A stretch of 64,000 bases of DNA from Diplonema papillatum (taxonomy: Eukaryota; Euglenozoa; Diplonemea; Diplonemida; Diplonemidae), in the NCBI GenBank assembly GCA_030068145.1, contig JAPJBO010000022.1:186001-250000 (forward strand), written 5' to 3'. Of the stretch, positions 15,401 to 24,400 are shown one piece after another (within the stretch, counting starts at the first letter, position 1; every line of letters starts with the position of its first letter). The position numbers and the translations under genes were made by a program. The notes under the pieces are model-generated. The model was not told the DNA's origin, made no database searches, and was given only the letters and a program-made list of their open reading frames with translations.

Positions 15401-18400
15401 ATCACTCACTGTCACTCACTATCACTCACTATCACTCACTATCACTCACTATCACTCACTATCACTCACTATCACTCACTATCACTCACTTTCACTCACT
15501 TTCACTCACTATCACTCACTATCACTCACTATCACTCACTATCACTCACTATCACTCACTATCACTCACTATCACTCACTATCACTCACTATCACTCACT
15601 ACTCACTCACTATCACTCACTATCACTCACTATCACTCACTATCACTCACTATCACTCACTATCACTCACTATCACTCACTTTCACTCACTTTCACTCAC
15701 TATCACTCACTATCACTCACTATCACTCACTATCACTCACTAGCATGCCAATCTTCCCCCGACACGTACAAACAAAAATGGCACTAACTCGGACGGAGTA
15801 AAACCGTGATTGGATTAAAGTTGAACCGGGTAAAACCTGGGGTTCACCCGGTTCGGCTGTTTCTTGTATACGCGTGTATAAGCACCTGCTTTGTAGGAAA
15901 TACTTGAAGAGACTGCCAGTTGCGAAAACTCAAAGGAGGTAAATGTGAAGATTCGAATGTTGTTGCGATGACTCCCCACTATCGCATCAATCTTCCAAAA
16001 ATCTCGAAGGAGGTAAATGTGCTGTAGCCCGCACGAAATTCAGGTAAATCTGGGTTTAGTGGCCGGCGTACAGTGAGTTATCACGTGCGAGAATATGCGA
16101 GAATCATGCGAGAATTTTGCGAGAGTCGGGGCCGCGACCCCCCAATACGAGAATAGGCGAGAATACGAGTCGGATCGGATGTATGCCTAGGCAATCATTG
16201 CTTCTCGCGCATCAGGAACACAAAAGGATTAATTCTTCTCTCGGCAAGCGTGATGAGGGCGCCTCACGTTGGGCGAAAACGACCAACTCTAGCACAAGGC
16301 AGTCCCTCGAGTATTTTTCCCCCGCCGACCCCGGTATGCAGATCTAGACTGTCGGTCTAAATTTGCAACGCAAACGATTCCCCTGCGGCTTGGAAGGAAA
16401 TGCTCGGCGAAGCTGCCAGACAATGAACCGAAGGGATCCCAAGTTTGAATTCACAAAATTCAAATTCAAGAGTTTGCAAGTTTCAAACCCCTGTTCAAAC
16501 CCCTGACCCTCAAGCGAACCGTACGATCGAAGAGAGAGCTGGTGACTAATGCAGGCCGTCGCTACAGATATTCTGCATTCTAGCCTTAACTACCATAGGA
16601 TAACAGACGCGTTCCATCTGCTGTGACGTAGACACGGAGTGTGCATAGTGCGTTGCTCAGGGTAGTCGGAGGCCTGACAATCACACTAATGCAACAAATT
16701 TACTACCATAGGCTATCGTCGACAAGCAGAGTACGACACGGTACGATCGAAGAGGTAGTCAGCTGGTGACTAATGGCCATCGCTGCACATATTCTGCATT
16801 CGCACCTCAACTCGTGGATGATCTCAACCTAGTTTTCGCATTCTGCAGCCATTATTCCAGCCTAAACGAGCGTCTGACCACTTTTCCCGCAGTTTCGGAG
16901 CATTTTATGGGCACCTGAGTGGCGGGTTTCGAGTTTTGGATTTCTGGTGACACCCAGTTTGGGTCTCTGATGTTTTTCCTTAAGGAATTGCCTCAAGCGA
17001 ACTTTCACTCTAAAAAACGTGGGGGGCCCAAGACTACACTCCACGAAGGAATGTACTTGGTGTCGGTCACAAACAGTCCCGGACATGGCTAGCCATAACC
17101 CATAACGAAAGCGTGCACTAAATATACAACCCGTTACCACATACCGTATTTGTAAAAAGACGTACCTACCCCCCCCCGTGTTTAAGATCGCCGCCTCCCC
17201 CCCCGTGTATAAGATCGGTTTTTTTTGAGAAATGAGGGCGATCTTATACACGGGGGGGGAGGGGGGTGGGGTCCCGCGCAGCGGGAAAGTTTTTTTTTGG
17301 GGGGTGTTTTTACTGTTTGGGGGGGGAATTTGGCCCCGCGCAGCGGGAATTTTTTTTTTTTTGGGGTACTTTTTCTCCGAGAGGTTCCGGCAGGGAAAAT
17401 ATCTCTGGGGGGAGATACGCAGATCCTTGGTTGCCCGTGGTAAGTTGCGGTTTTTTTCCTTCTTCTGCTGGTCTTCCGAATGCAAAACGACTGCAGGAAG
17501 GGGATTCAAGGGGTTAACAAGATGCTCACATACATGAGTCAGGCTGCCCTCGTTGCAGCTGCGATGCTGTGCCTGATCAACGCAATAATTGATCCTGGCT
17601 GTCCTATTGAGTTCATTGAAGTTGACACACCCGTCTCACGGAGAAGAGCCTCTCGTCGCAGCACGAATATGAGGGGAACGAAGGGCATCAGAAACGTCAC
17701 AGGGCAGAATTGTTTTGCATCAGCCCTGGTGCAAATTCTGAGGTTGACAGATTGGCAGGGCACGATTGAACCTGGGACGAGATCCAAGCTACGATCAGCC
17801 TTGTTTTCACTGATTCGTCATGACGGCCGTGACCATTCAGCGACCAGAATGTAGACTTTTTTGTCCCGCCTTCCCAGCCGGTTCAACAACGGGCGCACCC
17901 AGCAGTGTGCTGCAGAACTCTTCGACAGCGTTCTTGTGCACCTGTTTAATGCCGATTCGCCGGATGCAGAGATAGACGAGCTTGGGCCTCTTCGCCTGCG
18001 ACTTGATAGTAACTTGAATTGCGGCGCCTGCGGCACCAATCGAACTCGCCACGCCACATCTATCGGTCTGCATCTACATCGTGGCAAGAGTGCGCAGAGC
18101 CAAACCATTCCAGGCATGTTGGAAACATTCTCCGCGCCGTTTTTCCATGACAGTGTGGACTGTGAGTTGTGTAAAACCAAGACAGTCACCTCCCAGAACA
18201 CGACAGTCTCCGTTGGAGAAGGGTTTACTGATCTGTTGTTGTTCATTGACTGCTTCCAGTCCGTCCCCCACACTGGTTTTGATGGCACTCGCTCCACGAA
18301 ACTCGTGAAGCATAACTTTCGTGTCGGGGTCCCAACAGAGATTCAATTTTGTGGGAAGACTTTGAGCCTTCGAGGAGTTGTGCTCCATCGCGGCCCGTCC

Positions 18401-21400: not shown

Positions 21401-24400
21401 TGCACGTGGAGCACAACCAAAGAAACATCTCTGTGTCGGAAAAGGTGAGGATGGACCCACTTGTTGTTTGGCAGGGGCCACGCACTATCACGGAAGGACG
21501 GGGCCGCCCCACGCTTTACCAGAACAGGCACAAGCACGACATCAACGTGCACTTCACGTGCCAAAAAGAAGGGAAGTGCGACTACGAAGTAATGCTCGAG
21601 TACATCTGTACATTACCCAGCTTCCCCTCAGGGAAGTATGGGCTTCTCGTAATGGATGGGTACAAGTCGCACTACAGCATTCCTGTCGTGAAGGAATGCT
21701 GTAGTGAGAAGGAGGAGGCGAGATCGCGGGGCTGGCTGGTGTTCATTATACCTCCAAACACGTCAGGTCACTTGAATGTTGGCGACCAGAGTGCCTGCAA
21801 TCTGAAGGTGCGACGACTTCTTCGTTCCAAGTGGATAGACTGGTCCTCGCAACAGCTTGTTGCAGAAAACGGTGCGAAGCTTCCTGCGCCAACCCGTGAC
21901 GAGGTGTGCAAGTGGCTCGCGGACTCATACTTGGCGATCACAGATGCAGACATAGATTCTGCCTTCAAAAGTGCTCTGTGGCCAGGCTCGTCTTTGCACC
22001 CTGACATTCACAAAAGAATGCCCGAACAAACGGAAGCAACGTTTACCCCTTCCCGCGACAACATTGATGTTTCACAGCAGATTTCGTCACTGGCTGATGA
22101 TTTCTTGGACGGCGACGACATTGAGGTTTTGGAAGACCTCGAGGAACCCGGTCGCGGGAATTACTGGGGGTTTGCCAAAGTTGTCAGTGGTCCTAAATAC
22201 GAAACGCGAATAAGAAACCGCAAGAGCGTGCGAGTCCGTGTCGAAGGGGAGAACGAAGAATTCATTCAGTTCAAAAGATTTCACGCAAGCACTTGAAGCC
22301 CTTCCGCGTTTGCATTCTGTAGTGGAGGCTGGGGTATAACCACGTCTCACACACCTCGCGTAAGGCCCTACTAGTATCAGCAGCCTTTTTCTCTTCTTCT
22401 TTTTCGCGCTTCGCTACGTCTTTCAAAGCGAGTCAGCTTTTCATCACTGCAGCACGCACATGTCTGTCCTCTTCGCTTTTCATTTTTGGGTCAAACCCCT
22501 ATGCTAACGCAAAACCATGTCTGCGCACTCCATCATGAGTTCGTAGCCTCTTCAGCTTGCCGCCGCAGCTACCATGGGGGGGGATTGGTTGGGGGGGTCC
22601 AAGGCCCCGCGCAGCGGAAAAAAAATTGGGGTGTTTTTTGTCCCCCCCCGTGTTTAAGATCGTCCCCCCCGTGTTTAAGATCGTCCCCCCCCGTGTATAA
22701 GATCGGTTTTTTTGGGGGGCGATCTTAAACACGGAAAAACGCGATCTTAAACACGGGGGGGGGTAGGTACCGGAAAAAGTCACAAAACTTTCCCCCAGAG
22801 CCCGCGGGTACATCTTTTTTCCGGTACGTCTTATTTCCGGTACATAATAATTCTGAAAGATCTCGGAGGGGCTATTTTCCCCTACCACTGGCGTTCGACT
22901 TCATACGCCCTCTCCGCTTCCTCTTTCGGAGCCTCGCCTACACTTCTCGAGATACGCCGACCACCCGCCGTGCTGCCGTGGCGCTCTGGCAATCCGCATC
23001 AGCACAAGAGAACACGACGAGTATCGAATTTACTACTGGGCGCGGTTCAACCGTTTTGCCTGTGACCCGTCGAACATGGCTCCCTCATTTTGTTGGGGGG
23101 TTTTTTGGCAGGCCGGTGGTGCGGTGCGCTGGTTCGATGCACTGAGTTATCGTTTTTTGGAGTGTTTCTCGCTGGTCCACGTTGCAGACCTTTTTCGAGT
23201 TGTTGCTCGAGATCAGCTCCGATGAAGAGATCTGCGGAAAATAAACCCGGGGACCAAAATTTATGTACGTGGTTCGTCCCGCCAGAGTTCGAGATGTGGG
23301 TCCTTGTGGAATGGTGATCGTGGAAATCAAAATCCATTTCGGTTTTCTTGTTACTGCCTGTCAGGTGACATCATCAATTCCCCGAGTTCCGGGGGTTTCA
23401 CCACTTGCCCCGACGTGGCAACATAATTACGCTGGTAGTTATGACCTTTTTGGCGTGAATCCACGGTGCAAAGTCTTGCCAATCCGCGGTGTAGATTCCA
23501 TACCCGCTGCCCTGAACATTGGAAAGACCCACAAACCACACACATACTATTTGTTTCCTGGCTCCATTTTCCACGAATCTCTTCATCGGAGCAGAACGTG
23601 AGCATAAATTCGACGAAAACGGTCTGCTGCGTGGACCGCGAGAAAATCTCCCCAACAAAGGAATTGATGGCGCACCGGTGCGGAGGTCGGTGCAGCCCAC
23701 ACTATATCCACAACGACACTGCATTGGTGAGCATGCATTGGTGAGTCCATGCGGAGCTACGAGCCGGCCCACGGTTTTTTAGTCTTGTGGAGACCCGTGT
23801 TGTTCCTGCGCGGGAGGCATCTGCCACAACTTCATTTGCCGTGACCTGTTCAGCCAGCACGATCTGCTGAGCTGTCAGGATTGGGGCAGCAGCGGAATCG
23901 CGAAAAAACACGCTGCATATTGTATTGTTGCGTCTTGATTTGATCCTGGATGTGGCTGTTGCAGGAAAGGCAGTTGGGCAAGCACTCTCTATGACAAATT
24001 CCAGCAGAACCCAATTGAGAGGGATAAACACGCAGTCTTTTTCCCTCAGGTTTTATTGTCGCAAACGAATCACCGCGTGCATCGGGCGGCGCCCACAGCA
24101 CGGAACAAGCCTACTGTTTCCTTCCGCGTGAAGGCACACGGAAGAGGGCCTCCGCAGGGGTGCTGACCCCAGCGAATGAAAGGGCTCCTTTTCCGCGGCA
24201 GGATGTATCTAGCAAGGTGGCCGGTGCTTCTCACTGGCCCCGACGCACGCCAGCGTCCTCCTCCAAACCCTCTCTGTCTCTATTTATGTCTCTCTTTCTC
24301 TTTTCTCCGCATGTGGTACAAAGAAGCGAGGTGTGGCGCGGCAGCTCTTCCCCAGAGAAGGGAAATAAAACCAAGCGGAAAAAGTCACAAAGTTTTTCCC

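Follow-up and report, generated by a model that had tools for sequence, protein, structure and literature searches.

Transposon-borne deubiquitinases are already known (OTU, Ulp1, VTD and one Trichomonas C19 case), and those of the OTU, Ulp1 and VTD kinds suggest that transposition is held in check by ubiquitin. The available text of the Ginger paper describes Ginger1 transposases that bear an OTU or Ulp1 domain and gives one sentence to a Trichomonas vaginalis protein, XP_001314237.1, that combines Transposase_11 with Peptidase C19 (PMC2836005). For Helitrons with VTD or OTU deubiquitinases, the authors suggest, in the portion of their article available to us, that the transposition proteins are spared from degradation (PMC9741609). 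The pogo superfamily is characterised in the accessible parts of two papers by a TA target duplication, with TAA or TAAA in some Fot types (PMC7386202), by inverted repeats that in most cases do not exceed 40 bp, in elements of 1.2-5.2 kb, and by a DDE_1 transposase with DD29-56D spacing and an N-terminal HTH_Tnp_Tc5, CENP-B_N, HTH_psq or other DNA-binding motif (PMC7386202, PMC7325037). In our literature searches we met no published pogo or Penelope-like element that carries a ubiquitin-specific protease (USP), nor any pogo-type transposase that forms one protein with a deubiquitinase.

The window analysed here, 64,000 nucleotides of Diplonema papillatum contig JAPJBO010000022.1, holds at 17165-22767 an element of 5,603 bp, including a nested repeat, with perfect 27-bp ends flanked by TA; without the nested repeat and one duplication it measures 3,720 bp. 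The perfect inverted arms extend to 30 bp (17162-17191 and 22741-22770), made up of the 27-bp end, the TA and one more matching base. Its features are:

17165..17191, plus strand: 5' terminal inverted repeat, 27 bp, with TA at 17163-17164
17444..18600, plus strand: USP-encoding section of the one reading frame, containing the hydrophobic leader, the Cys, His and Asp boxes and the zinc-type Cys pairs
17522, plus strand: first ATG of interest in the USP part
17852-17854, plus strand: in-frame TAG in the USP part
18592..18600, plus strand: left copy of the 9-bp target duplication, AGAAAAAAA
18601..20474, no strand assigned: nested repeat of 1,874 bp with inverted ends and a 13-bp tandem array, splitting the reading frame
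20475..20483, plus strand: right copy of the 9-bp target duplication, AGAAAAAAA
20484..22296, plus strand: acidic/basic linker and DDD transposase part, in the same reading frame, up to the stop codon
22741..22767, minus strand: 3' terminal inverted repeat, 27 bp, with TA at 22768-22769

The perfect inverted repeats and TA duplications reported in an earlier note on this DNA are confirmed, and the ends recur at other loci. The 5' end was recognised in 29 of the 30 loci retrieved by a 5'-end search, which include the window's own copy (L012 is the one in which it was not recognised), and TA precedes it in 29/29; 11 of the 30 loci show both ends recognisably, with TA flanking both sides in 11/11. 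The TA duplication, inverted-repeat length and element size fit the pogo superfamily. The DDE transposase of the earlier note likewise stands, as the transposase part matches Pfam DDE_1 (2.4e-8) and a catalytic D is invariant at three places in the transposase alignment; the spacing counted on that alignment is DD42D in subfamily A and DD35D in A3, within the pogo range. A match to HTH_Tnp_Tc5 (6.8e-4, 20.0 bits) lies below its 22.2-bit cut-off. Neither a single transposase nor a three-row transposase alignment drew a hit from the protein collection at E 0.001, in a search that reaches only relatives with exact short words in common, and none were found in viral contigs. By its ends, TA, DDE_1 match and DDD residues, the element is probably a pogo-like DNA transposon.

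Two plus-strand genes, the USP being cargo, had been proposed between these ends, and it is here that our reading departs from the earlier note. The two parts belong to one frame split by the 1,874-bp repeat with AGAAAAAAA on both sides: with the nested repeat removed to give the empty site, the frame is open from the USP into the transposase, a single match that taken alone has a 1-in-3 chance of occurring, and in another copy, C279, the frame with the USP His and Asp boxes continues through the linker. Two separate genes are ruled out by the frame open across the empty site, with C279 in support, and an intron in place of an insertion is disfavoured by the perfect 9-bp duplication, the inverted ends and the many copies of the repeat. 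USP and transposase are, as predicted from the sequence, one protein, of which the USP is the N-terminal domain. C279 has a frame shift just before the transposase and C757 one in the linker, and the translation contains an internal ATG after the linker at which the transposase could also start. Mutator-like elements have inverted ends, a 9-bp target duplication and, in autonomous relatives, a mutator-type transposase; the nested repeat in the window has inverted ends and a perfect 9-bp duplication. Its left end occurs, 99-100% identical, at at least 40 loci (40 scored of 887 candidates), and among four further loci its 3' end was found at C216, with flanks 8/9 alike by eye inside a T run, and was looked for without success in the C1341, C625 and C302 pieces. 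A different insertion, of about 280 bp, is present at the same A run in C1803. Judged by its nested insert and one in-frame TAG, the window copy is dead and predicted to be unable to make the whole fusion protein any longer.

Pfam UCH_1 matches the C-terminal USP piece (5.7e-5), and the N-terminal piece has no Pfam match. The Cys, His and Asp columns and the CxxC pairs line up with those of the genome's other USPs, in agreement with the earlier description of an apparently complete catalytic set with zinc cysteines; completeness itself does not hold for the window copy, because of the in-frame TAG at 17852-17854. The predicted fold (pLDDT 79.7, pTM 0.79) has zinc-type Cys pairs, and all 50 Foldseek matches listed are USP-family chains from solved USPs, which is support rather than independent proof since the input alignment held 39 database USPs. 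In type A the Cys box has one extra residue, which could alter activity, and in a single sequence from each of A, A2 and A3 a hydrophobic stretch precedes the Cys box by 25-31 residues. We regard the domain as a putative deubiquitinase of the peptidase C19 class.

A USP-bearing transposon family, as the earlier note had envisaged, is supported by USP sequence in other copies with these ends and in divergent subfamilies. USP sequence is present in 12 of the 16 examined contigs with a group-A transposase and absent from C676, C567, C974 and C12; it also occurs in two further subfamilies, A2 and A3, whose transposases are only 42-43% identical. Cys boxes are present in all three subfamilies, and every subfamily has at least one copy with His-box sequence. 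Of the 12 USP-positive contigs, 8 retain the leader alone of the USP frame, with one common deletion junction, which shows that most 'transposase-only' copies derive from USP-bearing elements. The same ends always enclosing a transposase alone, with a USP copied from the host, was not what we found: these eight copies keep a piece of the USP frame, and in the tree the window-element USP does not cluster with any of the 15 host USPs included, the USPs of transposons forming a clade apart. Chance capture of a copy of a host gene is thereby ruled out by the other copies and, for these 15 host USPs, by the tree, and the pairing of USP and transposase is, on these comparisons, old and belongs to the family. 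No intact fusion copy was found among the copies examined, all of which are broken. In the dN/dS comparison, to which the earlier note had looked for selection on the protease, the USP gives 0.65 (6 synonymous, 13 nonsynonymous) against one copy and 0.27 (7.5 synonymous, 6.5 nonsynonymous) against a second, these being the two copies with more than 10 changes and the changes few overall, one USP half of an A2 pair gives 0.67, and the pairs other than those at 0.65-0.67 lie at 0.23-0.27. Transposase pairs reach 0.77 and 1.12.

At least two other repeat families of this genome carry USPs, a GIY-YIG Penelope-like retroelement with the USP near its C-terminus and a long-frame family (L037-L045) with the USP in frames of up to 2,794 residues. 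The latter is left unclassified because 'hAT', assigned by eye, has no support from Pfam up to E 0.1 or a PDB sequence search, and because its element ends were looked for and not established. In the tree the type A USP is sister to that of the long-frame family, suggesting that the USP module moved between elements, and one clade of pogo USPs is not rejected by the topology test (p-AU 0.071). That several repeat families in a single genome have USPs suggests a restraint by the host that is shared among them. That deubiquitinase capture is a common strategy of unrelated mobile elements here (pogo-like, Penelope-like and at least one further repeat family) is an idea we hold tentatively, at somewhat short of an even chance; if true, it would point to a ubiquitin pathway by which the host holds transposons in check and which they repeatedly evade.

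We propose that the window holds a broken pogo-like copy with a USP-transposase fusion, and that in working copies the USP spares its own transposase or nearby proteins, a proposal to which we give an even chance. The ends and TA, single frame, catalytic residues, occurrence of the USP in three subfamilies and deletion derivatives are read from sequence and the USP fold from a predicted model. A fusion protein of about 960 residues would comprise a hydrophobic leader, USP (C19), acidic/basic linker, putative helix-turn-helix and DDD transposase. In working copies the USP would take ubiquitin off the transposase itself or, alternatively, off proteins brought close by transposase binding to the element ends, and the transposase may thereby escape ubiquitin-dependent removal long enough to carry out its cut-and-paste reaction; short relatives that share these ends could be mobilised in trans. 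Action on or near the transposase is favoured because the USP is fused to it, and shielding the transposase from ubiquitin-dependent removal appears the likeliest role, supported by the open frame, retention in three subfamilies, the deletion junction common to eight contigs, the catalytic columns, fold, dN/dS and the Helitron precedent. It is weakened by the lack of an intact copy, the C279 and C757 frame shifts, the extra Cys-box residue, the few dN/dS changes, the A2 and transposase ratios and the possible internal start. A single fusion protein allows self-protection of a transposase against ubiquitin to be addressed directly, the catalytic Cys serving as switch.

Through its fusion to a transposase that binds DNA, the USP could instead be tethered to the element and remove ubiquitin from histones or repair factors where the element leaves or inserts, which would ease access or guide the repair of the gap left by excision. 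A repair role has been proposed for the Ginger1 OTU/Ulp1 domains, in the text available (PMC2836005), and one of the 50 fold matches listed is a chain of the SAGA DUB module; however, it is one USP of many, the matches do not single out chromatin USPs and a hydrophobic leader is odd on a chromatin enzyme, so that we consider this unlikely, if deserving of some weight. Somewhat less probable still is a passenger or decayed domain with no present function, which the broken state of all copies, the additional residue that type A has in its Cys box, the higher USP ratios and the loss of the USP from amplified derivatives would suit, but which sits poorly with the USP kept in three subfamilies, its Cys and His boxes included, and with the lower ratios of the other pairs. 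The leader ahead of the Cys box in A, A2 and A3 could also mean that the fusion is cut by its own protease, for instance to release the transposase from this leader; yet USPs cut after ubiquitin-like C-termini and no ubiquitin-like segment was seen by eye in the frame, making this very improbable.

Shielding of the transposase by its own USP would have its closest functional counterpart in the Helitrons, which, as described in the available text, also carry deubiquitinases but are rolling-circle elements with other DUB folds, and whose VTD activity was measured, whereas the window-family USP is known from sequence and predicted fold alone (PMC9741609). Ginger1 shares the fusion of a ubiquitin/SUMO protease to a cut-and-paste transposase, but there, by the same partial text, the protease is C-terminal and of other families, and the integrase is Gypsy-type (PMC2836005). 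The nearest precedent found, by description only, is XP_001314237.1, which joins a domain of the USP class to a DDE transposase, one of another family than that of the window element. Finally, the window family shares with the pogo superfamily, as far as the source excerpts go, TA duplications, short inverted ends, DDE_1, the DDD residues and perhaps, on a match below the cut-off, a helix-turn-helix (PMC7386202, PMC7325037), and is set apart by its N-terminal USP and by DD42D in type A.

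The element at 17165-22767 is a broken copy of a pogo-like transposon in which the fusion of a ubiquitin-specific protease (USP) with a transposase is family-wide, a fusion whose mechanism we infer. As the earlier note had claimed, perfect 27-bp inverted ends bound the element and TA stands on either flank. With the first 116 bases as query, at least 102 matches were found in the genome (40 of 436 candidates scored). Of the 30 loci fetched, 29 (all but L012) had a recognisable 5′ end, TA preceding it in all 29, and the base ahead of that TA was free (A 12, T 9, G 6, C 2). At 11 of the 30 loci the two ends could both be identified; these copies are 285-1,443 bp in length, with TA at both sides in 11 of 11. 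Each element end also holds a CCCCCCCGTGTWTAAGATCG-like unit in several subterminal copies, putative binding sites. The interior is made up as follows:

17444-18607, plus strand, USP frame with an in-frame TAG at 17852-17854
18601-20474, 1,874 bp, nested repeat with inverted ends, a 13-bp tandem array and AGAAAAAAA on both flanks
20401-22296, plus strand, transposase frame

The flanking AGAAAAAAA is a 9-bp duplication. The left end of the nested repeat was found at no fewer than 40 loci at 99-100% identity, the window copy among them (40 of 887 candidates scored), and insertion is apparently into A/T runs at the few loci seen. Rejoining the flanks leaves the frame open from USP into transposase save for the TAG, giving a run of 963 codons that begins with the ATG at 17522, an agreement expected by chance at a single empty site in 1 case in 3. 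Further support for one frame comes from the divergent copy C279, in which a 243-aa frame with the USP His and Asp boxes extends through an acidic and basic linker; the tblastn match in this frame spans fusion residues 240-478 (26% identity, many gaps) and crosses the USP/transposase boundary near residue 386, and the transposase proper follows the linker in a different frame. The frame of C757 is disrupted within the linker, an internal deletion in C1458 joins USP and transposase in a single 329-aa frame, and C1803 has the order USP then transposase, as in the window, with a different insertion at the same A run. The two separate plus-strand genes of the earlier note are thus replaced by one frame, and the protease, in which it saw an apparently complete Cys/His/Asp set, is interrupted by the TAG; the window copy is dead. 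Long tandem arrays also occupy 9706-11194, 15389-15742, 54495-57131 and 57429-63998 of the window, the first two with a 10-bp unit in common at two places.

The USP was recovered in other family copies, for which the earlier note had proposed to search. The count was made on 16 contigs with transposase sequence of group A, the window subfamily, plus upstream DNA; L004, L013, L015 and the second element in L011, with just 55 bases of transposase, were dropped beforehand, and most of the at least 79 rows of the transposase search (73 of 331 candidates scored) lie outside it. USP-frame sequence is present in 12 of the 16 (C22, C1803, C1458, C1321 and eight others) and absent from C676, where the match starts within the transposase, C567, C974 and C12. 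The eight (C1549, C254, C2475, C201, C119, C166, C1200, C105) retain a leader-only remnant that stops at element position 530-534 and is followed by transposase from about 3921, the transposase side for C119 being taken from a separate transposase search; this common junction shows a single deletion, and therefore descent from a USP-bearing element. Two additional copies, C47 and C809, have 312 bases of USP frame fused to the 3′ end at a common junction. Both halves of the USP occur in both copies of subfamily A2 (C279, C757), and subfamily A3 has leaders with a Cys box on C807, C42, C26, C1379, C327 and C1085 (weaker rows C517, C437), with a zinc-type pair on C42 and a His box on C1379, both in broken frames.

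Pfam matched UCH_1 to the C-terminal piece of the window USP (5.7e-5) and gave no match to the N-terminal piece. When the stop was treated as a residue, PDB sequences matched no more than weakly, led by USP14 (E 0.012); two of the matches, with E values of 0.039 and 1.3, were to unrelated proteins. In an alignment with other USPs of the genome, two of them long-frame, three Penelope-like and one from the host, the Cys, His and Asp columns of the window USP are conserved, as are four zinc-type Cys. The AlphaFold2 model (mean pLDDT 79.7, pTM 0.79) had 316 Foldseek matches at E <= 0.001, the 50 listed all belonging to the USP family (TM 0.56-0.69, normalised to the query); because 39 of the 40 input rows were database USPs, the model is support and no independent proof. 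The type A Cys box has one extra residue (NVTGQNC), in common with the long-frame family; spacing in the A2 and A3 boxes is the usual one. For each of the three subfamilies, A, A2 and A3, one sequence carries a hydrophobic stretch of 19 residues (mean Kyte-Doolittle value 2.0-2.7) that lies 25-31 residues before the Cys box. The window transposase matches DDE_1 (2.4e-8) and, below the cut-off, HTH_Tnp_Tc5 (6.8e-4), with no PDB chain at E 1; A, A2 (C279/C757) and A3 (C807) transposases are 42-43% identical over aligned parts, the three catalytic Asp positions being invariant.

USPs also occur in other repeats. A Pfam UCH search gave at least 149 rows (149 of 935 candidates scored), of which 112, counted by hand, span profile positions 1/2-240 at 76.5-85.9 bits; all eight of these fetched fall in the Penelope-like clade with C94 and C9, and by the 112 rows the C94-type retroelement is abundant. 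C94 (L066, L056), the only locus fully read, has a 1,590-aa frame with GIY-YIG (weak, 3.7e-4, 21.2 bits vs 22.6), a stretch identified by eye as reverse transcriptase, a USP (8.5e-21) and a tail resembling a zinc finger, a domain order from which we presume it Penelope-like. The unclassified long-frame family (C2498, C104, C678, C739, C2041, C574, C277, C637, C1218, C681; L037-L045, L048) has frames up to 2,794 aa with USP (8.7e-7), an unclassified second half and 102-bp tandem repeats near the frame start. At least 30 further rows matched the A2 USP query, in frames 627-3,806 aa long, including C2358, C233, C1956, C2428 and C1067. The window itself has a 1,082-aa frame that by eye resembles a DIRS-type reverse transcriptase (11569-14817, plus strand), two frames resembling, by eye, parts of an intron-containing kinesin motor domain gene (7038-9424, plus strand), and scattered eukaryotic LSU and SSU rRNA fragments on both strands (470-801, 2481-2805, 7567-7719, 31754-31864).

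A tree was built from 31 USPs of the genome: 3 each from pogo and long-frame elements, 10 from Penelope-like ones and 15 regarded as host. In it the USPs of the pogo and long-frame groups unite (100/99), those of the Penelope-like elements form one clade (100/100), and the type A USP is sister to the long-frame family (98/95), not grouped with A2. A reduced 22-row tree agrees, with long branches flagged; in it a single pogo USP clade was not rejected (p-AU 0.071), and one origin of all transposon USPs is possible (68/87). The capture looks old, and a single capture and exchange of the USP between elements are both possible. By Nei-Gojobori, synonymous/nonsynonymous changes (ratio in brackets) in the USP between the window and other copies were 6/13 (0.65) for C1803, 7.5/6.5 (0.27) for C1321, 2/0 for C1458, 1/0 for C47 and 1/1 (0.33) for C809, and 5/4 (0.23) and 2/5 (0.67) in the A2 pair; in the transposase they were 22.5/31.5 (0.40) for C1803, 5/13 (0.77) for C676, 1/2 (0.59) for C1458 and 1/4 (1.12) for C1321, and 10/25 (0.77) in the A2 pair. 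These counts hint weakly at constraint on the protein, USP and transposase alike, with neither domain favoured.

In the papers searched, and among titles and abstract beginnings, we found no report linking a pogo transposase with a ubiquitin-specific protease, nor one for Penelope-like elements; the 2021 permuted-domain Penelope paper or Repbase may describe USPs. Related associations are described in two papers: Ginger1 transposases with OTU/Ulp1 domains and, mentioned in a single sentence, a protein of Trichomonas that combines Transposase_11 with Peptidase C19 (PMC2836005), and Helitrons with DUBs, for which the authors suggest protection from degradation (PMC9741609, VTD paper). Finally, type A has DD42D catalytic spacing and type A3 has DD35D, which compare with the DD29-56D that PMC7386202 reports for pogo transposons.
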